Positions 12,556 through 25,451 of a stretch of DNA of 64,000 nucleotides are shown piece by piece. Numbering within the stretch: position 1 is the stretch's first letter; the number at the start of each line of letters is the position of its first letter. The translations under genes and the position numbers were made by a program. Under the pieces are notes generated by a model that ran no database searches, was not told where the DNA came from, and worked only from the letters and a program-made list of their open reading frames with translations. Origin of the DNA: Polyangiaceae bacterium (lineage in GTDB: Bacteria; Myxococcota_A; Polyangia; Polyangiales; Polyangiaceae); the NCBI GenBank assembly GCA_020849655.1, contig JADLFU010000069.1, positions 1 to 64,000 of the forward strand, read 5' to 3'.

Positions 12556-13212
12556 CTAGGCGCGGATGACCGCGACGTCGGCCGGGACGACGAGCGGCGG
12601 CTCGGTGCGGGCGACGATGTCCTCTACCGACACGTCGGCCGCGCGCTCGCGGAGCACCAGCCCCTCGGGCGTGACGTCGAGGACCGCGAGCTCGGTGATG
12701 ATGCGGTGCACGACGCGCTTGCCGGTCAGCGGCAGGTTGCACGCGTGGAGGATCTTCGGGGAGCCGTCCTTTGCGGCGTGCTCCATGATGACGACGACGC
12801 GCTTCGCCCGCGCGACCAGGTCCATCGCGCCGCCCATGCCCTTCACCATCTTGCCGGGGATCATCCAGTTCGCGAGATCGCCCTCCTTCGAGACCTGCAT
12901 CGCGCCGAGGATGGCGAGATCGATGTGCCCGCCGCGGATCATCGCGAAGCTCTCGGCGCTCGAGAACGTCGCGGCGCCGGTGGCCATGGTCACCGTCTCC
13001 TTGCCGGCGTTGATGAGGTCGGGATCCTCGGTCCCGGCGACGGGGTAGGGGCCGATGCCGAGCAGGCCGTTCTCGCTCTGCAGCACCACCTCGACGCCCG
13101 CGGGGATGTAGTTCGCGACGAGCGTCGGCATCCCGATGCCGAGGTTGACGTAGTAGCCGTCGCGGAGCTCCTCGGCCGCGCGGGCGGCGATCTGTTCACG
13201 TGTGAGCGGCAT
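12556..13212 (-). CDS. scoB: 3-oxoacid CoA-transferase, subunit B
   Basis: 218 residues from ATG 13212; the frame is open further upstream only as an overlap with subunit A. The family opening ([26 protein letters not shown]) is present, with the catalytic glutamate region [14 protein letters not shown] and the later [14 protein letters not shown] and [12 protein letters not shown]. With subunit A it transfers CoA between succinyl-CoA and acetoacetate or related oxoacids (ketone body or branched acid use). It starts 2 bases after the end of subunit A, so the two are one operon. Confidence 0.93.
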
Positions 13213-13214
13213 GG

Positions 13215-13964
13215 CTATTTCCTCACCGTCCGGCGCTCGATGCGCTTCTCGTAGCCCTGTCCCTGGAAGATGCGCTGCACGTAGATGCCCGGCGTGTGCA
13301 CGTGGTCGGGGTCGAGCGCGCCGACGTCGACCAGCTCCTCGACCTCCGCGATCGTGACCTTGCCGGCGGTCGCCATCATCGGGTTGAAGTTCGCCGCGGT
13401 GTGGCGGTAGACGAGGTTGCCGAAGCGGTCGCCCTTCCACGCCTTCACGATCGCGAAATCTCCCGTGATCGCGCGCTCGAGGACGTAGTCGCGGCCGTCG
13501 ATCTCGCGGATCTCTCGCTTCTCGGAGTACCGCGCGACCGCGCCGCCGCCTGGCGCATAGAGGACGGGCAGGCCGCCGTCGCTGATGGCCGTGTGCGCGC
13601 CCGTCGGCGTGTAAAACGCCGGGATCCCCGCGCCGCCCGCGCGGATGCGCTCGGCGAGCGTGCCCTGCGGCGTGAGCTCGACCTCGAGCTCGCCCGCGAG
13701 GTACTGCCGCTCGAACTCCTTGTTCTCCCCGACGTACGACGAGATCATCTTCTTGATCTGCTTCGCGCGGAGCAGGACGCCGAGCCCGAAGTCGTCGACG
13801 CCGCAGTTGTTCGAGACGACGGTCAGGCCGGTGACGCCGAGGGCGCGGATGGCCGCGATCGCGCGCTCGGGGATGCCGCAGAGGCCGAACCCCCCCGCGA
13901 GGATCGTCGCGCCGCTCGGGATGTCGGCGCACGCTGCGTCGGCGGACGCGTAGACCTTGTCCAT
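13215..13964 (-). CDS. scoA: 3-oxoacid CoA-transferase, subunit A
   Basis: 249 residues from ATG 13964; the upstream open frame is antisense to panC. Typical SCOT-A features are [59 protein letters not shown] and [16 protein letters not shown]. It pairs with subunit B immediately downstream to form the active transferase. The gene diverges from panC with 88 bases between, which must hold both promoters. Some homologous pairs act on other oxoacids such as 3-oxoadipate, so the substrate is inferred. Confidence 0.93.
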
Positions 13965-14052
13965 GGCCCGCTCGAATAGCCGCGCCCGGCGCGCCGCGCC
14001 AGGCCATTTGTACCGCGCGGAGGGGCGCGCCGACCGGGTACAGTGCGCGCTC

Positions 14053-14919
14053 ATGATCGAGATCCACCACGAGGTCGCCGGCTTCCGGGCGAGGCTCGAT
14101 CGCGCCCGCGCCTCGGGAGCGCGCGTGGGCCTCGTGCCGACGATGGGCGCGCTGCACGACGGCCACCTGTCGCTGGTCGCGGAGGCGAAGGCGCGCGCGC
14201 GCTTCGTCGCCGCGACCATCTTCGTGAACCCGACGCAGTTCGGCCCCGGCGAGGATCTCGCCCGGTACCCGCGCGATCTCGACCGCGACGTCGCCCTGCT
14301 CGCGCGCGTCGGGTGTGACGCCGTGCTCGCGCCGCCGGTCGAGCAGATCTATCCGCCGGGCGAGCGCACGCGCGTGTCGGTCGGCGAGCTCGGCGACACG
14401 CTCTGCGGCCCGCACCGCCCCGGGCACTTCGAGGGCGTCGCGACCGTCGTGACGAAGCTCTTCGCGATCGCGGGCGAGCACACGGCCGTCTTCGGCCGCA
14501 AGGACTACCAGCAGCTCGCGATCATCCGCCGCCTCGCGATCGATCTGCTGCTGCCGGTGACCGTCGTCGGGGCGCCCACCGTGCGCGACCCGGACGGCCT
14601 CGCGATGAGCTCGCGCAACGCGTACCTGTCGCCCGAGGACCGCTGTCGCGCGCTGTCGCTCTCGGCGGGGCTGCGGGCCGCGCACGCGCTGTTCGTCGCG
14701 GGGGAGCGTCGTGCGTCCGCGCTGCGCGAGGCGGCGGCCGGGCCCGTCAGGCGCGCGGCGACGAGCGTCGACTACGTGGACGTCGCCGAACCTGACACCC
14801 TGCGCGTGCACGACGACGACGCGGTCGTCGGGGCGCGCGCGCTCATCGCCATCGCCGCCCGCGTCGGCGCGACGAGGCTCATCGACAACGTCGTCGCAGG
14901 AGAGGAGGGGTCGCCATGA
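14053..14919 (+). CDS. panC: Pantothenate synthetase (pantoate-beta-alanine ligase)
   Basis: 288 residues from ATG 14053. Nucleotidyl-transferase motifs are complete: [14 protein letters not shown] (HxGH), [38 protein letters not shown] and the KMSKS-like AMSSRNAYL. It condenses pantoate with beta-alanine using ATP, the last step of pantothenate and so of CoA precursor synthesis. The stop overlaps the ATG of the thymidylate kinase (ATGA), so the two are translationally coupled. A good purine-rich ribosome site (AGGAGAGGAGGGG) for the next gene is inside the panC end. Confidence 0.95.
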
Positions 14920-15566
14920 TCGAGGGGATGTTCTTCGTCGTCGAGGGGATCGACGGCGCCGGCACGACGACGCAGGTCGCGAGGCTCGTCGAGCGCCTCA
15001 CGTCGAAGGGGCTGCCCGCGATCGGCACGCGCGAGCCGACGTCAGGCCCCATCGGCGCGCTGCTGCGTCAGGCGCTCACGCACCGCCTGGTCGTGCCGGG
15101 TCATCACGGGCCGCGCCCGCCCGGGTGGGGCACGATGGCGCTCCTGTTCGCGGCCGATCGGCTCGATCACCTCGAGGCCACCGTCCTGCCGAACCTCCAG
15201 GACGGCGTCAGCGTGATCTCCGATCGCTACGATCTCTCCAGCCTCGCGTACCAGAGCGCGACCGCGAGCGATCCCGCGGCCGCCGTCGAGTGGGTGCGAC
15301 GGCTCAACCACCACGCGCGCCGGCCCGATCTCACCGTCGTCATCGACGTGCCGGCCGAGCTCGCAGCGCAGCGTCGCGCGGCCCGCGGCGCCGCCGAGGA
15401 GCTGTACGAGGGGGCCGAGCTGCAGCGCCGTCTCGTCGAGGCGTACCGGCGCGCCGAGGAACTCGTGCCCGGCGACCGCGTGGCGCACGTCGACGGCCGC
15501 GCGGCGCCCGACGAGGTCGCCGACGCGGTGTGGGCCGAGGTCGACCGCGCGAGGCGTGGGGGCTAA
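14916..15566 (+). CDS. tmk: Thymidylate kinase with altered Walker A
   Basis: 216 residues, usual length. The P-loop region reads [11 protein letters not shown], so the Walker A lysine position (Thr17) is Thr. The other family marks hold: [33 protein letters not shown] (DRY/F motif) and a final [15 protein letters not shown]. The enzyme phosphorylates dTMP to dTDP. The Lys-to-Thr change may define a subfamily or lower activity. It overlaps panC by 4 bases. The stop is TAA at 15564-15566, opposite a TTA codon of the convergent lipoprotein frame. Confidence 0.85.
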
Positions 15567-16394
15567 CGGGCCGGTCGCGCAGGCCCCGGTCTTCGCCGTC
15601 GACGGATCGAACGTGGTCACGATGCCGCCCGCCGTGCCCTCGAGATCGGGCAGGCACCGCTCGGCGCCGTCCACCGTGACCCCGAGCGCGTATTTCTTCG
15701 TGATGTCGACCGCGCCGGCCGCCTGCATCGTGGTCTCGGCGGCGCTCGCGGTGCGGTACACGAGCGCGACGTGCCCGGAGTCGACGTCGACGAGGCGGAG
15801 CTCGAGCGGCTTGCCGACGAGCGCGCCCAGCCCCTGGATCTTCACGGACAGCGGCGCGCCGAGCTCCTTCGGCGGCGACTCGGCGCCGGGGTAGCGGCTG
15901 ATGTCGGTGAACTCGAACGTGTGCACGAACGCGACGGAGACCTTGCCGTTCTGCGCCGTGAGGTCGTCGATACGCCAGGCGTGGTCGTCCGACGACACCG
16001 AGTCGATGCCGTCGAACCCGCCGGAGCCGTTGACGTCGGCGTAGAAATCGAGCCGGTACTTCTGCGAGGCGTCCCGCGGGACGAAGCGCTTGATGTCCAT
16101 CGAGACGCTCGCGCTCCCGAGCGGCGAGAGCACGATGCGCGAGCGCAGCGTGTTGTCGGCGTCGCCGACCACGCGCAGCTCGACCATGTGCGACGTGTGG
16201 ACCGACATGCCGTTCATCTGCAGCGACAGATCGTCGTAGGCGACCGGGGCGCCTCCTGCCCCACCGGCCCCCGCTGCCCCCCCGGCGCCCGCTGCTCCCT
16301 GCGCGGCCGCCGGCTGCGCGGAGTCGTCTCCGCCGCAACCCACGAGGGCCGCGAGCGCCGCCGCAGCGACGTAGGAACAATTGGATTTGTTCAC
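15042..16394 (-). CDS. Lipoprotein with calcium-loop-like motif (frame runs on into antisense of tmk)
   Basis: GTG start at 16394 overlaps the kinase stop (GTGA) and has a nearby GGAAGG ribosome site. The N-terminus ends in lipobox LVGC (Cys20), then a Gly/Ala spacer. Residues about 52-276 align with the lipoprotein half of the upstream gene: LQMNGMSVHTSHMVELRVVG, DFYADVNGSGGFDGIDS (Asp120 to Asp131, like an EF-hand/dockerin calcium loop), DDHAWRID and FDPSTAKTGAC. The conserved part stops at codon 276. Codon 277 is TTA (15564-15566), after which the frame stays open to 15042, entirely antisense to tmk. That last 175-residue part is not credible as protein. Function unknown; probably surface exposed. 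Confidence 0.55.
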   Translation of the reverse strand: MNKSNCSYVAAAALAALVGCGGDDSAQPAAAQGAAGAGGAAGAGGAGGAPVAYDDLSLQMNGMSVHTSHMVELRVVGDADNTLRSRIVLSPLGSASVSMDIKRFVPRDASQKYRLDFYADVNGSGGFDGIDSVSSDDHAWRIDDLTAQNGKVSVAFVHTFEFTDISRYPGAESPPKELGAPLSVKIQGLGALVGKPLELRLVDVDSGHVALVYRTASAAETTMQAAGAVDITKKYALGVTVDGAERCLPDLEGTAGGIVTTFDPSTAKTGACATGPLAPTPRAVDLGPHRVGDLVGRRAAVDVRHAVAGHEFLGAPVRLDETALQLGPLVQLLGGAAGRATLRCELGRHVDDDGEIGPARVVVEPSHPLDGGRGIARGRALVREAGEIVAIGDHADAVLEVRQDGGLEVIEPIGREQERHRAPPGRARPVMTRHDQAVRERLTQQRADGA

Positions 16395-18685
16395 AATTCC
16401 TTCCGGTACGTGCGGCCCGAGGTGCCCGTGGGCGCGGCGGTCGGAGGGGGCTCCGGGGTGGCCGGCGGGGTGTCGGGCTTCGCGTCCGGCTTCGACGGCG
16501 GCGCCTTCCCGCCCACGCCCGGCTTCGGCGCGGGGCCTCCCGCGACGGGCTTGGCGGTCGACGTGGGCTCGGGGGGCGTCTCGACCTTCGGCGCGGTCGA
16601 GGACGCGGCCGGCGGGGTCTCGGTCTTCGCGGGCGCGGCGGAGACCACCGGGGCCTTCTCCGGCTGAGCGGCGGCGGCGGGAGGAGGCGCGCTCCTCTGC
16701 GTGACGAAGAACACCGCGACCGCGGCGGCGGCGAGCCCCGCGCCGCCGAGAAGGAGCGGCAGCTTGCTGCCCGACCGCGGCGCGGGCGGCACAGTGCCGA
16801 TGCTCGCGCCGGTCGTCGTCTGCGGCGGCCGGTCCTGCATCATCGTGCCGGCGGTCGCCATCCTCGCCTCCGCCGCCGCGCCGCCAGGGCGCTTCGACGG
16901 ATCCTCCGTGAGCACCTTCACGCGCTCGATCGGCGGGGTCTTGCGGCGCTGGTGGTCGGGCAGCGACGCGCGCGACGGAGAGCTCTCCATCACGCTGTCG
17001 TTCGGGTGCTCGTCGAGCCAGTCCGCGAGCGCCTTCTGCAGCTCGCGCGCCGTCTGGTAGCGGTCGTCCGGCTCGCGCGCGAGCGCCTTGTCGACGATCG
17101 AGATGAAGTCGGCCGGGAGATCCGGCGCGACCTGCCCGAGCGGCGTCGGCGGCTCGAGCACGATCTTGAACAGCAGATCGTTCACGTTCTCCGCGCTGTG
17201 CGGCAGGTACCCCGACACGCACTCGTAGAGGATGACGCCGAGCGAGTAGAGATCCGCGCGGTGGTCGACCGATTTTCCGCGGGCCTGCTCCGGCGCCATG
17301 TAGTTCGGCGTGCCCATCACCGAGCCCGTCTGGGTCATCCCGCTCTCGCTCGACGAGTCGGTGAACTTCGAGATGCCGAAGTCGAGGATCTTGACGACCT
17401 CGTAGTCGCCCTCCTTCGTGATGTAGACGTTCTCGGGCTTCATGTCGCGGTGCACGATCCCGGCCTCGTGCGCCTTGCGCAGGCCGTCGAGGACCTGCAG
17501 CGACACCAGCGCGGCGCGCGCCGGGCTCATCAGCCCGCGGCTCTGCATCCGGTCGGCGAGCGCCTCGCCGTCGAGGAACTCCATCACGATGAACCGCGAG
17601 CCGTCCTCGAGATCGCCGAGGTCGAGCACGTCGACGATGTGCTTCGAGCCGATGCGCGCCGCCGCCTGCGCCTCGCGCTCGAAGCGCGTCACGAGATCGG
17701 TCTTCCGCGCGATCTCGGGGTGCAGCACCTTGATCGCGACCCGGCGCTTGATGCGCACGTTCTCGCCCTCGTAGACGACCCCCATCCCCCCCTCGCCGAG
17801 GACCTTCACGACCTTGTACTTGCCGTCGATGACTTGACCGGGCTCGAGGGACATCGTTCGCTCCTCTCCTAACTTGGGGCAGACGCCCGGGGTGGCGGTC
17901 GACGGGTCGAAGACCGTGACGAGCCCCGCGTCGGTGACCGTGGGGTTCGGGATGCAATACGGCGTCTTGTCGTCCACGATGACGTCGACCACGTAGGCGT
18001 TCCCCACCTCGATCATCCCCTTGACCTTCATGTTGTCGCCGTCCTTCGCCTGGGGGAACCGGTACAGCACCGCCGTGTGCTTCGAGCCGGTGTCGACGAC
18101 GCGCAGCTCGACGATCTTCGCGGCGCCGATGTTCTTCAGCGTGATGTCGGTCGGGGCGAACAGCTCCTTCGCGGGGTTCTGGTTGCCGTTGGGGTACTGG
18201 TAGAGATCGGTGAAGTCGAAGTTGTGGGTGAACTCGACGACGACCTGGCCCTCCTTGTTGGCCTTGGTCAGCGGGTCGATGCGCCACGCGTGGTCGTTCA
18301 TCGTGACGGAGTCGACGCCGTCGAAGTCGCCGGAGTTGTTCACGTCCGCGTAGAAATCGAGGCGAAAATCCTTGTCGTTGTGCGGCACCGCGCCCGGCGC
18401 GCGCAGCTCGAGCGTGGGGACGCCGAGCGGCTTGATGAACCCGCGGAAGTAGATGATGTTGTCCGAGCCGACGACCCGGTACTCCAGCATCTGGTTCTGG
18501 TGCGCGGTCATGCCCGTGAGGCGCAGCACGAGCTCGTCGTTCTGGCCGACCTGCTGGGGGCCGGTGCTCGAGTCTACCTGGGCCTCCTTGAAGCGGTCGA
18601 CGTCGACGGCGAGGGTGCACCCCGCGCTGAGGGCGAGCGCGGCGAGGAGCGCGGCGAAGGAGAAGGTCTGGTTCATCTGGGTCAT
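16391..18685 (-). CDS. One open frame: lipoprotein domain followed by Ser/Thr protein kinase
   Basis: 764 codons from ATG 18685 with no stop between two unlike parts. Residues 1-271 are a lipoprotein (lipobox LSAGC, Cys23) with a calcium-loop-like segment (Asp114 to Asp125) paralogous to the next gene. Codon 272 is TTA. From Met278 a complete Hanks kinase follows: GEGGMGVVY, Lys319, HRDMKPEN (Asp414), DFG (435) and APE (464). Then come a Pro-rich linker, a transmembrane helix (LLLGGAGLAAAAVAVFFV) and a Pro/Lys-rich tail. A lipid-anchored exported N-terminus cannot share a topology with a cytoplasmic kinase. Two proteins are therefore likely, the kinase starting at ATG 17854 behind its own ribosome site. 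It overlaps its neighbours by 4 bases on each side. Confidence 0.75.
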   Translation of the reverse strand: MTQMNQTFSFAALLAALALSAGCTLAVDVDRFKEAQVDSSTGPQQVGQNDELVLRLTGMTAHQNQMLEYRVVGSDNIIYFRGFIKPLGVPTLELRAPGAVPHNDKDFRLDFYADVNNSGDFDGVDSVTMNDHAWRIDPLTKANKEGQVVVEFTHNFDFTDLYQYPNGNQNPAKELFAPTDITLKNIGAAKIVELRVVDTGSKHTAVLYRFPQAKDGDNMKVKGMIEVGNAYVVDVIVDDKTPYCIPNPTVTDAGLVTVFDPSTATPGVCPKLGEERTMSLEPGQVIDGKYKVVKVLGEGGMGVVYEGENVRIKRRVAIKVLHPEIARKTDLVTRFEREAQAAARIGSKHIVDVLDLGDLEDGSRFIVMEFLDGEALADRMQSRGLMSPARAALVSLQVLDGLRKAHEAGIVHRDMKPENVYITKEGDYEVVKILDFGISKFTDSSSESGMTQTGSVMGTPNYMAPEQARGKSVDHRADLYSLGVILYECVSGYLPHSAENVNDLLFKIVLEPPTPLGQVAPDLPADFISIVDKALAREPDDRYQTARELQKALADWLDEHPNDSVMESSPSRASLPDHQRRKTPPIERVKVLTEDPSKRPGGAAAEARMATAGTMMQDRPPQTTTGASIGTVPPAPRSGSKLPLLLGGAGLAAAAVAVFFVTQRSAPPPAAAAQPEKAPVVSAAPAKTETPPAASSTAPKVETPPEPTSTAKPVAGGPAPKPGVGGKAPPSKPDAKPDTPPATPEPPPTAAPTGTSGRTYRKEL
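17852..17872 (-). promoter_or_regulatory. Internal ribosome site and kinase start after a TTA codon
   Basis: On the minus strand the order is TTA (17872-17870), the purine run GGAGAGGAG (17869-17861), six bases, then ATG (17854-17852). This is a strong Shine-Dalgarno at ideal spacing inside an open frame. It marks the likely real start of the 487-residue kinase. TTA stands exactly where a stop codon of the lipoprotein would be expected. Confidence 0.7.
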
Positions 18686-19698: not shown

Positions 19699-19838
19699 CT
19701 TATCGGACGGCGCCGCGGACACGCCATTCTTTCTTTCCGAACGCCCGGCCACGCGCGAGAGCTGCGCCTGGGTGTTGCCCTCGGCGGAGTTCTGCGGCAT
19801 CATTTTCGTCCGGCCGTCACGGCCCGCGAAAGAACCGC
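19699..19838. promoter_or_regulatory. Divergent promoter region
   Basis: 140 bases between the divergent starts at 19698 and 19839. It includes locally AT-richer stretches (CTTATC, CATTCTTTCTTTCC, CATCATTTTCG) that stand out in this GC-rich DNA and probably hold the promoters. No clear sigma-70 pair or operator could be fixed by eye. Confidence 0.35.
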
Positions 19839-22598
19839 ATGCTGATCTCCAGAACATCTTTGGTTTGGCTGGGTGGGTTGACCATGGCGGTGGTGGCTGG
19901 CTGCGGGGGCAGCGACGACTCCCCACCCCCGCTCTCGAGCGGCGCGGGCGGCTCGGGCGGGGCTGGCGGTCAATCCGCTGGCGTGGTCGCCTCCGGCCCG
20001 AGCCGGGGATCGGCCATCGCGCTCACGGAGGACGACTCGATCGCGGTGGCCGTCAACCGCGACGTCGGCAGCGTGTCCGTGTTCTCGGTCAACTATTCGT
20101 CCGGGGCGCCGCAGATGACCCGCACGGCCGAGGTCCCGGTCGGCGCCGAGCCCTGGGAGCTGGCGCTGCACCCGGACGGCGACACCGCGTTCGTCGTGCT
20201 CCGCCGCGATCAGAAGCTCGTCAAGATCACCGGTCTGAAGTCGACCCCGACGGTGGCCGGCAGCGTGGCGACCGGGTCGGAGCCGACGGGCGTCGCGCTC
20301 ACGCCCTCGGGCGCGACGGCGTGGGTCGCGAACTGGGTCGACGGCACCGTGCTCGGCGTCGACACCGCCACGATGGCGGTCACCTCGACGATCGATCTCA
20401 ACAAGGCCCTCGCGGCCTCGGGGTACCTCGGCGCCGTCGAGCCGCGGCCCGCGCTCGCGCACCCGCGCGCGCTGACGATCACGAACAAGAACGGCAAGGA
20501 CGACGACCAGACGCTGCTCGTGACCGAGTTCTTCTCCCAGCAGAAGGAGCCGCTCGCGGCCGACGGCTCGAACGCCGACACGAACCGCGTCGGCGTCGTC
20601 TACCGCGTGGCGCTCTCGGATCTCTCGGTCGCGGTCGTCGAGCTGCCCGCCGTCGCCGACATGGGCTTCAAGGATCACAACGGCGGCACCGCCGGCTGCT
20701 ACCCGAACCAGGTGACCGCGATCACGACCCGCGACGCGTTCGCGTACGCGGTCTCGACGTGCGCGTCGCCGCGCGGGCCCGTCGGGACGTACACGGGGCC
20801 CGCGTTCGCGTCGTGCAGCGACGACTCGAAGTGCCCCGGCGCCGTCCCCGGCTCGTGCGTCGCCGGCAAGTGCACGACGAACTGCACGACCCCGACGGAG
20901 TGCGGCGCGAACGGCGGCGTCTGCTCGGCGAACAAGTGCACCATCAACTTCGCCGACGTGAAGACCACGACCGCGCCGGTCGTCTCCGTCATCGATCTCC
21001 TGAAGAAGTGCGCGGGCCCCGCGCCGTGCACGGGCGCCGTGCTCGCGACCGTGAACCTCAACTTCGAGATGGACAAGCAGTTCGAGACCGGCGGCACGCT
21101 GGAGGACGCGCGCGCGTTCCCGCTCATGCCGACCGACATCGGGTTCACCTACGGAGGGACGGAGCTCGTCGCGTTCCTCCCCGCGAACGGCTCCGACTCG
21201 GTCTTCCGCGTGAAGTTCGACGAGACGTACCAGGCCGACGCGATCAAGGCGGTCGGCTGGGGGAACAAGAACCCCTTCGTCTCGCTCGGCGGCGGCGCGT
21301 CGCCCGGGCAGTTGCCGATCGGCGTCGCGGTCGCGCACAAGCCGCGCCCCGACGACATGGGCGCGACCTATGGGTTCGTCGCGAACGACGCGACCCGCAA
21401 CGTGACCGCGCTCGATCTCGACACGGGCAAGGTGGTGTCGGCCGCGTCGTCGGCCGATCTGCCCGCGGATCCGCTCGCGAAGATGGTGCTCGAGGGCCGC
21501 AGGTTGTTCCAGACGGGGCTCGGGCGGTGGTCGATGGATCAGCAGGGCTGGTCGGCGTGTCAGTCGTGCCACACCGACGGGCTCTCCGACGGCGTGACCT
21601 GGTACTTCGGGCGCGGGCCGCGCCAGTCGCTGTCGCTCGAGGGCACGTTCTCCGCCAACGGCGCGCAGCAGCGCGTGCTGAACTGGACGGCGCCCTTCGA
21701 CGAGGTGACCGACCTCGAGAGCGTGGTGCGCTCGACGATGGGCGGCGTCGGCCTGATCGTGAAGGAGGCGAGCTTCTCGACCGCGAGCCGCCTGCCGTAC
21801 GAGTCGCTCGGCCAGAGCGGCCTCAGCGGCTCGGCAGCGGCCGCCGCGGACTCGTCGAACCCCGGGAACCTCCCGGCCGCGTGCGTGATCGACGACTGGG
21901 CGAAGGTGGTCGAGTACGCGAAGACGGTGCGCTCTCCGCGCGCGCCGACGAACCTCGACCCGGCGAAGGTGACCGAGGGGCGCGGGCTGTTCCAGGCGGG
22001 CAAGTGCCAGGGCTGCCACTCGGGCGACCAGTGGACGACCTCGCACCTGTTCTACACCCCCGATCCCACGAACAAAGTCAACAACTCGCTGAAGACGACG
22101 TCGTGGGGCGCGACGGTCGCGAAGTCCGGCCTGCCGATGGCCGTCTGGCCCGCGGTCGACGCGCCCGCCCAGATGATGCGCTACTCGGGCTCGAACCCGG
22201 GGCCGAACGACCAGCTCACGTGCATCCTGCGCAACGTCGGCACCTACGGCGTCGGCGAGGCCGGGCCCGTGCCAGAGCTGAAGCAGGACATGACGGGCGC
22301 GGGCCAGGGCAACGACGCCGACGGCCGCGGGTTCAACCCGCCCTCGCTGCTCGGCGCCGCGACGGGCGCGCCGTTCTTCCACGCGGGCAACGCGCGCACG
22401 CTCGAGGGCGCGCTCAGCGCGTCGTTCGCGCAGCACCACGGATCGCTCGCGTCCGGGTTCTTGCCGGAGAGCGACGGCGCGCGCGCCGCCAACGTCGCCG
22501 CGCTCGTCCAGTTCCTGCTCTCGATCGACGAGAGCGCACAGCCCATCGCCATCCCCGCGCTCGGCCCCGAGGGCGGCGTGTTCTGCTCCACCCCGTGA
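19839..22598 (+). CDS. Lipoprotein: beta-propeller plus di-heme cytochrome c
   Basis: 919 residues from ATG 19839; the longer open frame upstream lacks a signal. MLISRTSLVWLGGLTMAVVAGC is a lipoprotein signal. Residues about 50-560 look like a YVTN/YncE-type propeller (AVAVNRDVGSVSVF, ELALHPDGDTAFVV, VALTPSGATAWVAN) with a Cys-rich insert (CPGAVPGSC, CTTPTEC). The C-terminal third has two heme c sites, CQSCH (574-578) and CQGCH (723-727), in segments like MauG/cytochrome peroxidase-type proteins (GRRLFQTG, GRGLFQAGKCQGCH, FFHAGNARTLEGAL). It is likely a periplasmic or surface electron carrier. It is followed after 7 bases by the copper protein gene, so electron donation to it is a reasonable inference. 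Confidence 0.8.
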   Translation: MLISRTSLVWLGGLTMAVVAGCGGSDDSPPPLSSGAGGSGGAGGQSAGVVASGPSRGSAIALTEDDSIAVAVNRDVGSVSVFSVNYSSGAPQMTRTAEVPVGAEPWELALHPDGDTAFVVLRRDQKLVKITGLKSTPTVAGSVATGSEPTGVALTPSGATAWVANWVDGTVLGVDTATMAVTSTIDLNKALAASGYLGAVEPRPALAHPRALTITNKNGKDDDQTLLVTEFFSQQKEPLAADGSNADTNRVGVVYRVALSDLSVAVVELPAVADMGFKDHNGGTAGCYPNQVTAITTRDAFAYAVSTCASPRGPVGTYTGPAFASCSDDSKCPGAVPGSCVAGKCTTNCTTPTECGANGGVCSANKCTINFADVKTTTAPVVSVIDLLKKCAGPAPCTGAVLATVNLNFEMDKQFETGGTLEDARAFPLMPTDIGFTYGGTELVAFLPANGSDSVFRVKFDETYQADAIKAVGWGNKNPFVSLGGGASPGQLPIGVAVAHKPRPDDMGATYGFVANDATRNVTALDLDTGKVVSAASSADLPADPLAKMVLEGRRLFQTGLGRWSMDQQGWSACQSCHTDGLSDGVTWYFGRGPRQSLSLEGTFSANGAQQRVLNWTAPFDEVTDLESVVRSTMGGVGLIVKEASFSTASRLPYESLGQSGLSGSAAAAADSSNPGNLPAACVIDDWAKVVEYAKTVRSPRAPTNLDPAKVTEGRGLFQAGKCQGCHSGDQWTTSHLFYTPDPTNKVNNSLKTTSWGATVAKSGLPMAVWPAVDAPAQMMRYSGSNPGPNDQLTCILRNVGTYGVGEAGPVPELKQDMTGAGQGNDADGRGFNPPSLLGAATGAPFFHAGNARTLEGALSASFAQHHGSLASGFLPESDGARAANVAALVQFLLSIDESAQPIAIPALGPEGGVFCSTP

Positions 22599-22605
22599 GG
22601 ACTCC

Positions 22606-24474
22606 ATGAAGCGTCTCTCTCCCCTCTTCGCGCTGTTGTCCCTGATGGTGCCCGCTTTGGGGTGCTCGGGCGGTGAGTCCGACACCCCGGGCACGAAGGC
22701 GCCGGCCGACGCGCCGGTCGCCGACTCGCTCGGCAGACTGGGGTTCTCGATGAACTTCACCCAGCAGCCTCACACCGACGAGCTGAACTGCCACTACATC
22801 AAGACGCCGAACGACGCGCCGGCCGAGGTGCGCCGCGTGCGGGTCACCTTCCCGCCGGGCAGCCACCACGTGCACATCTACCGGAGCACGCAGGCCGAGG
22901 ACAGGGACTACGTCGCGCCGTGCACCGGCGGCATCGACTGGGACCGGTGGCGCATGGTGGTCGGCGTCCAGACGGAGAACATCGACTGGACGCTGCCCGA
23001 GGGCGTGACCTTGCTGCTCGAGCCGCACCAGCAGCTGATGGTGCAGGTGCACTGGGTCAACATCGGCAACGAGCCGGTGAGCCCCACGGTCCGGGTCGAT
23101 TTCGAGGAGGTCCCGCCTGGCAACAGCAAGCACCTCGGCGTCGGCTTCGGGGTGTCGGAGGACGTGCGGATCGATCCGCACCTCCGCAAGTTCGTCGGCG
23201 GCTGGGTGCCGCTGCCGGAGGGCTCGCGGGTCATCGCGATCATGGGGCACTTCCACGAGCGCGGAGAGCAGTACACCGCCGACATCCGCAAGCGCGGCGC
23301 CTCGAGCGGGCGGGACATCTACGACGCGCAGGGCCAGCAGACGTTCGTGTTCCGCCACTACGAGACCCCCGAGCCCATCGGCAAGGACGAGGGCGTCGCG
23401 TACGTGTGCAACATCAACAACTTCACACAGAAGGAGATCACCTTCGGCGCGAACGTCGCGGACCAGGAGCACTGCAACATCGCCGTGTACTTCGAGCCGC
23501 CGGGGATGGACGCCGAGTCCGTCGTCTACAACCAGGGCTTCGTGAAGCCCGCCCAGACGCAGATGGTCGACGGCAAGCTCGTGAAGGTCCCCGGCACGAG
23601 CGGCCTCTCGACCTCCGTGAAGACCGCGGTCGCCGGCGAGACCCTCACCGGCAAGGTGGAGCTCGCGACCCCCGCTGGTCCGCTGCCCGTCGAGGTCTAC
23701 CTGCCGCCGCAGCCGAGCCGGCTCGATATCCCGCGCATCGTGACGGTGCCCGCGTGGGAGCAGTCGGTGACGTTCCCGATCCGAGGCCTGCGACCGGGCG
23801 CGGACGTCGAGCTGCAGGCGACGACGACGGGCCGCATCCGCGAGTCGGCGCACTTCTCGGTCTCGGGGCTCTCGCTGTCGGAGGTCGTGTACGATCCCGC
23901 AGATCCCAACCGCCGCTGGGTCGAGATCAGCAACACCTCGAGCCTGCCGATCAACCTCTGCGAGTACAGCCTGGGCGCCGGGACCGCGACGTACGCGGAC
24001 TTCGCGCGGCCGCTCGGCGAGTGCCAGGGCTCCACGCCTGTGTACCTCGCGCCCTCGGGGTGCCTCGTCCTCGGGCTGCCCGGCGCGCAGGCGAACCCGG
24101 CGACCGGGATGATGGTGATGTCCGAGCCGTTCGGCGCCGGCTTCGCGCCGCCCGCCGGCGGGGCGCTGGGCGTGGCGCTCGTCGACAACGTGCTCGGGGA
24201 GTGGATCTGGGACACGATGAACCCGCCGCGAGACGACGTGTCGGGGCTGCCGATGTACCCGCGGCCGTCGCTCCTCGACGCGGTCGCGTTCGGCGCCGCG
24301 CCGAACCCGAACCTCTACGGGCCTGACGAGGTGATGTTGCCCGTCGGCCAGCAGGTCGGGGTGGCGCCGCTGGCGCCCTCCGCCACCGAGGCGCACGAGC
24401 GCCGCGACTCGCTCGCGTGGTCGGGCGACGGCGCGGTGACCCCCGGCATCTGCCGCGTGAAGACCCTCCCTTGA
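22606..24474 (+). CDS. Copper type II monooxygenase-like lipoprotein with lamin-tail domain
   Basis: 622 residues; lipobox PALGC (Cys20). Residues about 45-310 match the two-copper fold of peptidylglycine/dopamine monooxygenases. GSHHVHIYR holds the His pair (His87, His88), VQVHW a third His (His149), and GHFHERG the HxHxxG pair (His215, His217). At the site of the sixth ligand, EHCNIAVYF (His289) lines up with the EMCNLYIMYY of PHM, so the CuM Met is His here. Residues about 421-545 are a lamin-tail domain (LSLSEVVYDPADPNRRWVEI, NTSSLPINL). It probably hydroxylates or binds a substrate outside the cell. It is flanked by two c-type cytochrome lipoproteins in one operon. Activity is unproven. 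Confidence 0.7.
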   Translation: MKRLSPLFALLSLMVPALGCSGGESDTPGTKAPADAPVADSLGRLGFSMNFTQQPHTDELNCHYIKTPNDAPAEVRRVRVTFPPGSHHVHIYRSTQAEDRDYVAPCTGGIDWDRWRMVVGVQTENIDWTLPEGVTLLLEPHQQLMVQVHWVNIGNEPVSPTVRVDFEEVPPGNSKHLGVGFGVSEDVRIDPHLRKFVGGWVPLPEGSRVIAIMGHFHERGEQYTADIRKRGASSGRDIYDAQGQQTFVFRHYETPEPIGKDEGVAYVCNINNFTQKEITFGANVADQEHCNIAVYFEPPGMDAESVVYNQGFVKPAQTQMVDGKLVKVPGTSGLSTSVKTAVAGETLTGKVELATPAGPLPVEVYLPPQPSRLDIPRIVTVPAWEQSVTFPIRGLRPGADVELQATTTGRIRESAHFSVSGLSLSEVVYDPADPNRRWVEISNTSSLPINLCEYSLGAGTATYADFARPLGECQGSTPVYLAPSGCLVLGLPGAQANPATGMMVMSEPFGAGFAPPAGGALGVALVDNVLGEWIWDTMNPPRDDVSGLPMYPRPSLLDAVAFGAAPNPNLYGPDEVMLPVGQQVGVAPLAPSATEAHERRDSLAWSGDGAVTPGICRVKTLP

Positions 24475-24482
24475 GCGCGACG

Positions 24483-25451
24483 ATGAACCAGGCGACGCGG
24501 TGGGTGGCGGTGCCGGCGCTCATGCTCCTCGGAGCGATGGCGAGCGCCGCAGGTTGCAGCTCGAAGGACTCGGACGCCAAGGTCGCGCTCGAGCCGACGT
24601 ACGAGAACATCCACAAGGAGGTGCTCCTCACCAGCTGCGCCTTCAGCTCGTGCCACGGAGGAGACTCGCCCGCGGCCGGGCTCAACTTCTCCGAGGTGAC
24701 CTCGTGCTCGCAGCTCGTGTGGCGTGACTCGTGCGTTCGCAACGACCGGTCGCGCGTGGTGCCTGGCGCGCCCGAGGACAGCTACCTGTACTCGAAGGTC
24801 ACCGCGACCGATCTCGGCACCCCGATGACGGCGGGAGAGTGCGCGCCGAAGGGCGATCTGCCCACGCACATGCCTCCGACCGACCGCCTCTCCGCCGACA
24901 AGATCGAGCTGATCCGCGCCTGGATCGACATCGGCGCGCCGTGCAACGCGGGGGTCGACACGACGCCCGTGGACGCGGGGATGGACGCGGAGGTCGACGC
25001 CGCGCCCGACGCATCCATCGTCGTCCAGCCCCCGGTGGCGATCACCTCCGAGTCGCCCACCGTCGGGGTCGGCAAGCAGGCGGTGCTGACGGTGAAGCTC
25101 GCCGGCGCCGTCGACTACGGCCCGACCACCGCGGCGCCGAAGAAGCTCGCGGAGTGCGCGGGCGTGCCCGCCGGCGCCGCGTGCTGCACGCCCGAGCTCT
25201 GTCAGGCGAACGGCCTCGCGCTCTGCTCGTCGAACGACAGCTGCGTGCCCAACGGAGGGCAGCAGGTCCAGATCAAGGTGTCGAACCCGGCCGCGCTCGC
25301 GGTGCCGCCGACGATGCTCGTGCCCTACTCGGCCACGGGGAACGACACGGGGCAGCTCGCGGTCCAGGGCATCGCCGAGGCGAAGGGCGTCGTGGTCACC
25401 GCGTGGGTCGGCGACACCTCCGTGAGCCTCACGCTCGACGTCGTGCCCTGA
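24483..25451 (+). CDS. Lipoprotein with CX4CH heme-type motif
   Basis: 322 residues from ATG 24483, 8 bases after the copper protein. Lipobox SAAGC (Cys25). The motif SCAFSSCHGG (Cys52, Cys57, His58) is CX4CH rather than CX2CH, a spacing common in myxobacterial surface c-type-like proteins. It is followed by THMPPTDRLSADKIELIRAW, with the distal Met and the helix typical of planctomycete/myxobacterial cytochrome-like domains. An Asp/Ala spacer (VDAGMDAEVDAAPDAS) leads to a beta-sandwich C-terminus with Cys pairs. It is probably an electron-transfer partner in the same operon as the propeller cytochrome and copper protein. Heme binding is inferred. Confidence 0.7.
   Translation: MNQATRWVAVPALMLLGAMASAAGCSSKDSDAKVALEPTYENIHKEVLLTSCAFSSCHGGDSPAAGLNFSEVTSCSQLVWRDSCVRNDRSRVVPGAPEDSYLYSKVTATDLGTPMTAGECAPKGDLPTHMPPTDRLSADKIELIRAWIDIGAPCNAGVDTTPVDAGMDAEVDAAPDASIVVQPPVAITSESPTVGVGKQAVLTVKLAGAVDYGPTTAAPKKLAECAGVPAGAACCTPELCQANGLALCSSNDSCVPNGGQQVQIKVSNPAALAVPPTMLVPYSATGNDTGQLAVQGIAEAKGVVVTAWVGDTSVSLTLDVVP

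Follow-up and report, generated by a model that had tools for sequence, protein, structure and literature searches.

A single-origin bacterial clade of predicted PHM-fold dicopper lipoproteins with histidine in place of the CuM methionine

Our analysis indicates that a lipoprotein gene in the contig JADLFU010000069.1 of a Polyangiaceae bacterium, of which a stretch of 64,000 nucleotides (hereafter, the window) was analysed, belongs to a widespread bacterial clade of PHM-fold proteins in which the methionine ligand of the CuM site, Met314 of rat PHM, is replaced by histidine. PHM, peptidylglycine alpha-hydroxylating monooxygenase, is the copper enzyme of hormone amidation in animals. We refer to these proteins with histidine as His-type and to the relatives that keep the methionine as Met-type. 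By homology and predicted fold the His-type proteins are members of the PHM/DBH superfamily of type II copper monooxygenases, with the Pfam domains PF01082 and PF03712, and by the definition of the CuM ligands they are non-standard. The original prediction had described a natural Met-to-His variant in this protein; the replacement proved to be real, but it belongs to a whole clade of single origin and not to this protein alone. The unit of importance is the clade rather than the single protein.

The window gene opens with an ATG at position 22606, and its stop codon ends at position 24474, giving a protein of 622 aa (Table 1). Judging from the lipobox PALGC20, the protein would be lipid-anchored. 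In the Pfam search, only Cu2_monoox_C (E 0.001) and LTD (E 3e-5) were matched, both below the gathering score. Single-sequence searches came up empty (no PHM was retrieved by phmmer from the PDB, and a scan of genome contigs with the window protein gave no match); the divergence of the protein was too great for them, and profiles had to be used. With a profile of 30 homologues, the E-values were 1e-22 for rat PHM and 2.5e-19 for human DBH; when the profile was built from His-type members alone, PHM was reached at ~1e-6. The AlphaFold2 model of the window protein had a block pLDDT of ~90–96 over most of residues 45–300, except for the edges and a loop near residues 241–250, and residues 310–622 were modeled with low confidence (pLDDT mostly <60). 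All of the first 31 foldseek matches of this model were PHM or DBH structures (best 8.8e-13), and the same was true of the His-type protein L102 from Minicystis rosea (pLDDT 91, pTM 0.85; best match 3.3e-13). Both the profile matches and the structure comparison with PHM, in which PHM/DBH was the only fold among the top matches of the two His-type models, agree with the earlier proposal of a PHM-type copper protein.

Table 1. Positions of the described features in the window.
Feature	Position	Strand	Evidence or remark
Upstream lipoprotein gene, YVTN beta-propeller and two CXXCH haem motifs, 919 aa	19839..22598	+	
CQSCH haem motif, upstream gene	21558..21572	+	
CQGCH haem motif, upstream gene	22005..22019	+	
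His-type PHM-fold dicopper lipoprotein gene (predicted)	22606..24474	+	ORF, PHM/DBH profile match, foldseek
Putative signal peptide with lipobox, predicted lipidated Cys20	22606..22665	+	Sequence MKRLSPLFALLSLMVPALGC; Cys20 nearly invariant among homologues
PHM-like catalytic core, residues 45–300, two jelly-roll domains (predicted)	22738..23505	+	AlphaFold2 pLDDT
His87-His88 codons, putative CuH ligands (PHM H107/H108)	22864..22869	+	Invariant in every homologue covering the pair; PHM alignment
His90 codon	22873..22875	+	PHM equivalent Leu110; Asn in 36/40 sampled His-type members
His149 codon, putative CuH ligand (PHM H172)	23050..23052	+	113/113 homologues
His215-x-His217 codons, putative CuM ligands (PHM H242/H244)	23248..23256	+	113/113 homologues
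His289 codon at the CuM Met314 position	23470..23472	+	Profile alignments; 97 His / 16 Met among 113 homologues
Asn291 codon (PHM Asn316)	23476..23478	+	40/40 His-type vs 0/42 bacterial Met-type sampled
Partial lamin-tail-domain match, residues 420–460	23863..23985	+	PF00932 E 1.7e-5, below cut-off
Downstream lipoprotein gene, CX4CH cytochrome-like domain, 322 aa	24483..25451	+	PSCyt1 E 0.01, below cut-off
CAFSSCH motif (CX4CH), downstream gene	24636..24656	+	

The six histidines proposed as copper ligands (H87, H88, H149, H215, H217, and H289) were each found at their positions in the translation. In both profile alignments, the EHC/EMC motif of the query was placed on EM314C of PHM, and column 289 thus corresponds to Met314, as had been predicted. 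Across the 113 aligned homologues, the HH pair, H149, H215, H217, and E288 were invariant wherever covered. This conservation exceeds what chance would give, as does that of His289 within the His-type clade. At the sequence level, the invariance provides the three histidines of a CuH site (H87, H88, and H149), whereas the standard CuM set of two histidines and one methionine is altered: the HxH motif is kept, and the methionine is replaced by histidine in all 97 clade members. Exactly six histidines, three per copper, are invariant in the 85 distinct His-type sequences. In the same 85 sequences no column had methionine at >75%; a methionine elsewhere in the chain as the CuM ligand, which would have spoken against the predicted role of His289, is ruled out at the sequence level on this ground. 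Four cysteines conserved in the myxobacterial members are lost in other phyla, and the six histidines stay. At position 90, a histidine (in the motif HHVH) occurs only in the genus of the window, with Asn or Ser in the other His-type members; His90 is a possible extra, fourth CuH ligand peculiar to this genus.

Homologues were present in 53 of 97 related genomes, and a His-type profile scan of public genomes added 80 more loci. Comparison of the bacterial homologues at the CuM column, suggested along with the original prediction, gave 97 His (85 distinct sequences) and 16 Met among 113 homologues; the public scan used the pattern GHFH[SE]RG, so that His-type proteins were enriched in this set on purpose. 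According to the labels of the public records, His-type carriers belong to Myxococcota, Ignavibacteria/Bacteroidota, Latescibacterota, Armatimonadota (Armatimonadetes), and cyanobacterial relatives, and cultured carriers include Sorangium, Polyangium, Archangium, and Minicystis. One record labelled as a Bifidobacterium breve MAG (L094, CALQBK020000004.1) has a core-myxobacterial His-type gene, and its label or binning looks wrong. An independent PF03712 draw covered 141 Myxococcota genomes, of which 72 contained a match; this draw, which favors Met-type proteins as the Pfam model itself does, yielded 32 further members that were read, all 32 with methionine, and three of them are paralogues in the window's own genome. 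One Met-type paralogue of this genome (G000:C11:72176-73072) is broken by an in-frame TAG. In a genome of the same class (G181), 15 PF03712 proteins were counted, and Myxococcota show a strong expansion of Met-type copper monooxygenases. The His-type proteins mostly fall below the Pfam cut-off, and no NCBIfam model matched them, which makes the clade largely invisible to annotation.

In a tree built from 31 His-type rows and 30 Met-type rows, rat PHM being among the latter, the His-type proteins formed one clade even with the CuM column masked (ultrafast bootstrap 100, SH-aLRT 99), and 99% of the bootstrap trees needed one change at this column. In a larger tree, made quickly from 83 rows, the His/Met split had an SH-aLRT of 94. 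The sequences read as a single Met-to-His change in the history of the clade; this direction follows from the position of PHM on the Met side of the tree, the root itself not being inferred by the data. That His289 is a singleton or a sequencing error is excluded by the 78% identical orthologue and by the clade sharing the histidine. The window protein and the orthologue from its own genus lie on a long branch near the base, which would suit a degenerate or chance feature, with His289 neutral or disabling in one lineage. We consider this explanation highly improbable, being already contradicted by the invariance of the histidine in the distinct sequences of several phyla, with the other ligands kept. 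Given the long branch, the function of the window protein may have shifted within the clade.

Other positions known from PHM changed in part along with the ligand. Gln170 of PHM is kept in 38 of 40 His-type rows, and Leu110 is replaced by Asn in 36 of them. Arg240 is lost, with N, T, S, or M at its position, and Tyr318 is replaced by Phe, or by Ala in the window protein. PHM holds the peptide carboxylate with Arg240, Asn316, and Tyr318. Since Arg240 and Tyr318 are missing, peptide amidation by the His-type proteins appears unlikely, and a peptide-amidating function was dropped from consideration. No PAL lyase partner was found among the immediate neighbours scanned.

The window gene is the middle member of a tight three-gene operon; it starts 7 bp after the propeller/di-haem gene and ends 8 bp before the CX4CH gene. 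The genus is represented by one other genome, in which the gene order is the same (84, 78, and 75% identity, respectively). The upstream protein matched a surface-layer propeller (1l0q, 1.5e-24) and, weakly, a di-haem enzyme (6e1c); it carries the CXXCH motifs of a c-type cytochrome, and its Pfam cytochrome matches were below cut-off. The downstream protein contains no CXXCH, and its motif, CX4CH, is an atypical, putative site of haem attachment. Domains related to it gave E-values of 5e-5 and 3e-4 with the model of SO2930-family di-haem cytochromes, well short of its cut-off. The expectation of two flanking c-type cytochromes was thus supported by CQSCH and CQGCH for the upstream gene, but the downstream gene shows only the atypical CAFSSCH. 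Cytochrome c assembly genes are present in the window's genome. The neighbour genes were called by frame composition because high-GC shadow ORFs swamped ORF clustering; very long antisense or overlapping ORFs in the window at 12556-14811 (-), 15042-18620 (-), and 19800-22760 (-) are such shadow ORFs and not genes.

The propeller/di-haem gene was not found beside other His-type genes. For 15 of 81 His-type genes, however, a CX4CH homologue is located no more than 1.4 kb away or is part of the same gene, as against 0 of 45 Met-type genes (Fisher p 0.001), and this contrast is partly confounded by phylum, as within Myxococcota alone the counts are 4/66 and 0/45 (p 0.15). The pairing spans Myxococcota, Ignavibacteria, Bacteroidota, Latescibacterota, Tanganyikabacteria, and Armatimonadetes, and in one armatimonadotal protein (L040, Armatimonadetes/Armatimonadota) the CX4CH domain forms an N-terminal fusion with the copper domain. 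This adjacency, together with the fusion, points to electron donation by a cytochrome and not by ascorbate. In core myxobacteria the majority of His-type genes lack a nearby CX4CH gene, and the cytochrome partner is not universal in the clade.

Other genes recur beside His-type genes. In core myxobacteria (relatives of Polyangium, Minicystis, and Byssovorax), a gene for a lipoprotein of ~200–235 aa without a Pfam match often lies 3' of the His-type gene (L103:8967-9737, L102:9037-9741, and 11 other loci), and it is a possible partner. In three deltaproteobacterial genomes, a DsbD_TM and thioredoxin gene is found directly upstream of the His-type gene (L037:6441-7796; also L038 and L039). In Ignavibacteria/Bacteroidota, an FG-GAP/UnbV_ASPIC repeat protein accompanies the cytochrome and the His-type gene (L052:155-1597, L062, L048, L054, and L055).

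The reading that we favor, and to which we give about an even chance, is that of a secreted, lipid-anchored PHM-fold enzyme with two three-histidine coppers, which is fed by cytochromes, activates O2, and acts on a non-peptide substrate. CuH would be held by His87, His88, and His149, and CuM by His215, His217, and His289. The protein would be an outer-face or periplasmic lipoprotein receiving electrons from the c-type cytochrome proteins of the same operon instead of ascorbate, and the reduced CuM would activate O2 (or peroxide) for the oxidation of a small molecule or an exported substrate other than a glycine-extended peptide. The change from a thioether to an imidazole should favor Cu(II) and alter the reduction potential of CuM, which a cytochrome donor would fit. 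The copper occupancy, the ligand role of His289, the electron donor, the O2 chemistry, and the substrate are all inferred here. The extracellular redox complex with changed redox chemistry that was originally put forward is plausible as a putative assembly.

Retention of all the other ligands, Gln170, and Asn316, and the lack of an adjacent cytochrome gene in most core-myxobacterial members, would also be expected of a conventional type II monooxygenase with the non-coupled mechanism of PHM and DBH, in which a small-molecule reductant is used, His289 simply replaces the methionine, and the cytochromes are incidental. We regard this as rather unlikely, as the pairing with a cytochrome gene is seen in several phyla and once as a fusion, and as PHM and DBH are reported to keep their copper ligands without exception from a green alga (Chlamydomonas) to human (PMC6123673). 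It is also conceivable that the His-type protein is not an oxygenase but a cytochrome-fed module for copper binding, electron transfer, or small-molecule reduction (e.g., copper storage, or nitrite or peroxide reduction). Copper held by three histidines occurs at other type 2 sites as well, and the upstream propeller/di-haem protein weakly resembles di-haem peroxidase-type enzymes; nevertheless, both full sites are retained along with Gln170 and Asn316, which is more than storage needs, and this explanation is in our view distinctly improbable.

Three histidines per copper are the ligand set of haemocyanin and tyrosinase as well, and the possibility of a coupled, type-3-like dicopper oxidase, with the two domains in a closed arrangement and the coppers acting as a pair, was also weighed. 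Coupled type-3 proteins have their two coppers, each with three histidines, at a distance of no more than about 5 angstrom. Of the structures compared, the closed conformer 6ala gave the highest TM-score with both models, 0.70 for the window protein and 0.69 for L102 (1phm, 0.61 and 0.64), and the closed DBH chain A scored above the open chain B (0.34 vs 0.30 and 0.54 vs 0.46, respectively); this comparison covers two models, both of the His-type, AlphaFold2 places no copper, and 6ala is not singled out when the foldseek matches are ranked by E-value. The likeness of the His-type models to the closed conformer is therefore suggestive only. A coupled copper site in the closed form has been proposed for DBH (PMC4846438), but the closed form has been seen only in one-copper structures and was argued to be a one-copper loading intermediate (PMC6123673). 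We consider the coupled oxidase improbable, and similarly doubtful is the broader proposal that the His-type proteins are an ancient, widespread, cytochrome-driven PHM-fold class whose six-histidine copper pair is able to work as a closed, coupled, type-3-like site. If true, such a site would represent chemistry that has been proposed but is disputed for DBH and is not known from the PHM fold.

The C-terminal part of the window protein had been predicted to be a fused lamin-tail domain. A weak match of 41 residues was found in both members of the genus, but it is partial and below the Pfam cut-off (PF00932, 25.5 and 21.7 bits in the two orthologues vs 34.3 required; E 2.7e-4 in the sister genome). 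The region 310–622 was found only in the genus of the window, the other His-type proteins ending 6–24 residues past the core, and no relative of the lamin-tail region was found in the PDB. The lamin-tail fusion was rejected as a defining part of the system, and we regard the domain as an uncertain accessory tail confined to this genus.

The single CuM methionine of PHM and DBH is regarded as necessary for activating O2. The His-type clade offers a natural experiment, in which this methionine was replaced once and the result was kept in many species beside Met-type paralogues in the same genomes. With these proteins, the role of the Met–Cu bond and the question whether the two coppers can couple become directly testable, and the cytochrome neighbours hint at a route by which bacterial members could receive electrons without ascorbate. 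The CuM ligands have been described as two histidines and one methionine, and a 2016 paper introduced DBH as a member of a small class that occurs in eukaryotes (PMC4846438). No description of a natural His variant or of a bacterial PHM-like enzyme was found in the open-access literature searched, and other papers may contain one.

In comparison with the known systems, the His-type proteins share with rat PHM (PDB 1phm, 1opm, and 1sdw) the fold, the three-histidine CuH set, the HxH motif of CuM, and the positions of Glu313, Gln170, and Asn316. They differ from it in the replacement of Met314 by His, the loss of Arg240 and Tyr318, and the change of Leu110 to Asn (His in the window protein), as well as in being predicted lipid-anchored bacterial proteins with cytochrome-like neighbours. 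Dopamine beta-hydroxylase and tyramine beta-monooxygenase have the same catalytic core (4zel was among the top matches), whereas no DOMON or dimerization domain was matched in the His-type proteins and their CuM methionine is replaced by histidine. The Met-type bacterial PF03712 proteins of Myxococcota, including the three paralogues in the same genome, belong to the same family, share five of the six histidines, and are often lipoproteins; they carry EMC in place of EHCN, and the CX4CH cytochrome gene was absent from the vicinity of all those sampled. Engineered variants of the CuM methionine concern the same ligand position (M314I of PHM, structure 1yi9; Met471 of tyramine beta-monooxygenase); among the latter, the Cys variant is reportedly active and the His variant nearly inactive, and the low activity of the His variant counts against the reading that we favor. 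Those are laboratory mutants, whereas the His-type proteins represent a natural, conserved, and ancient replacement.
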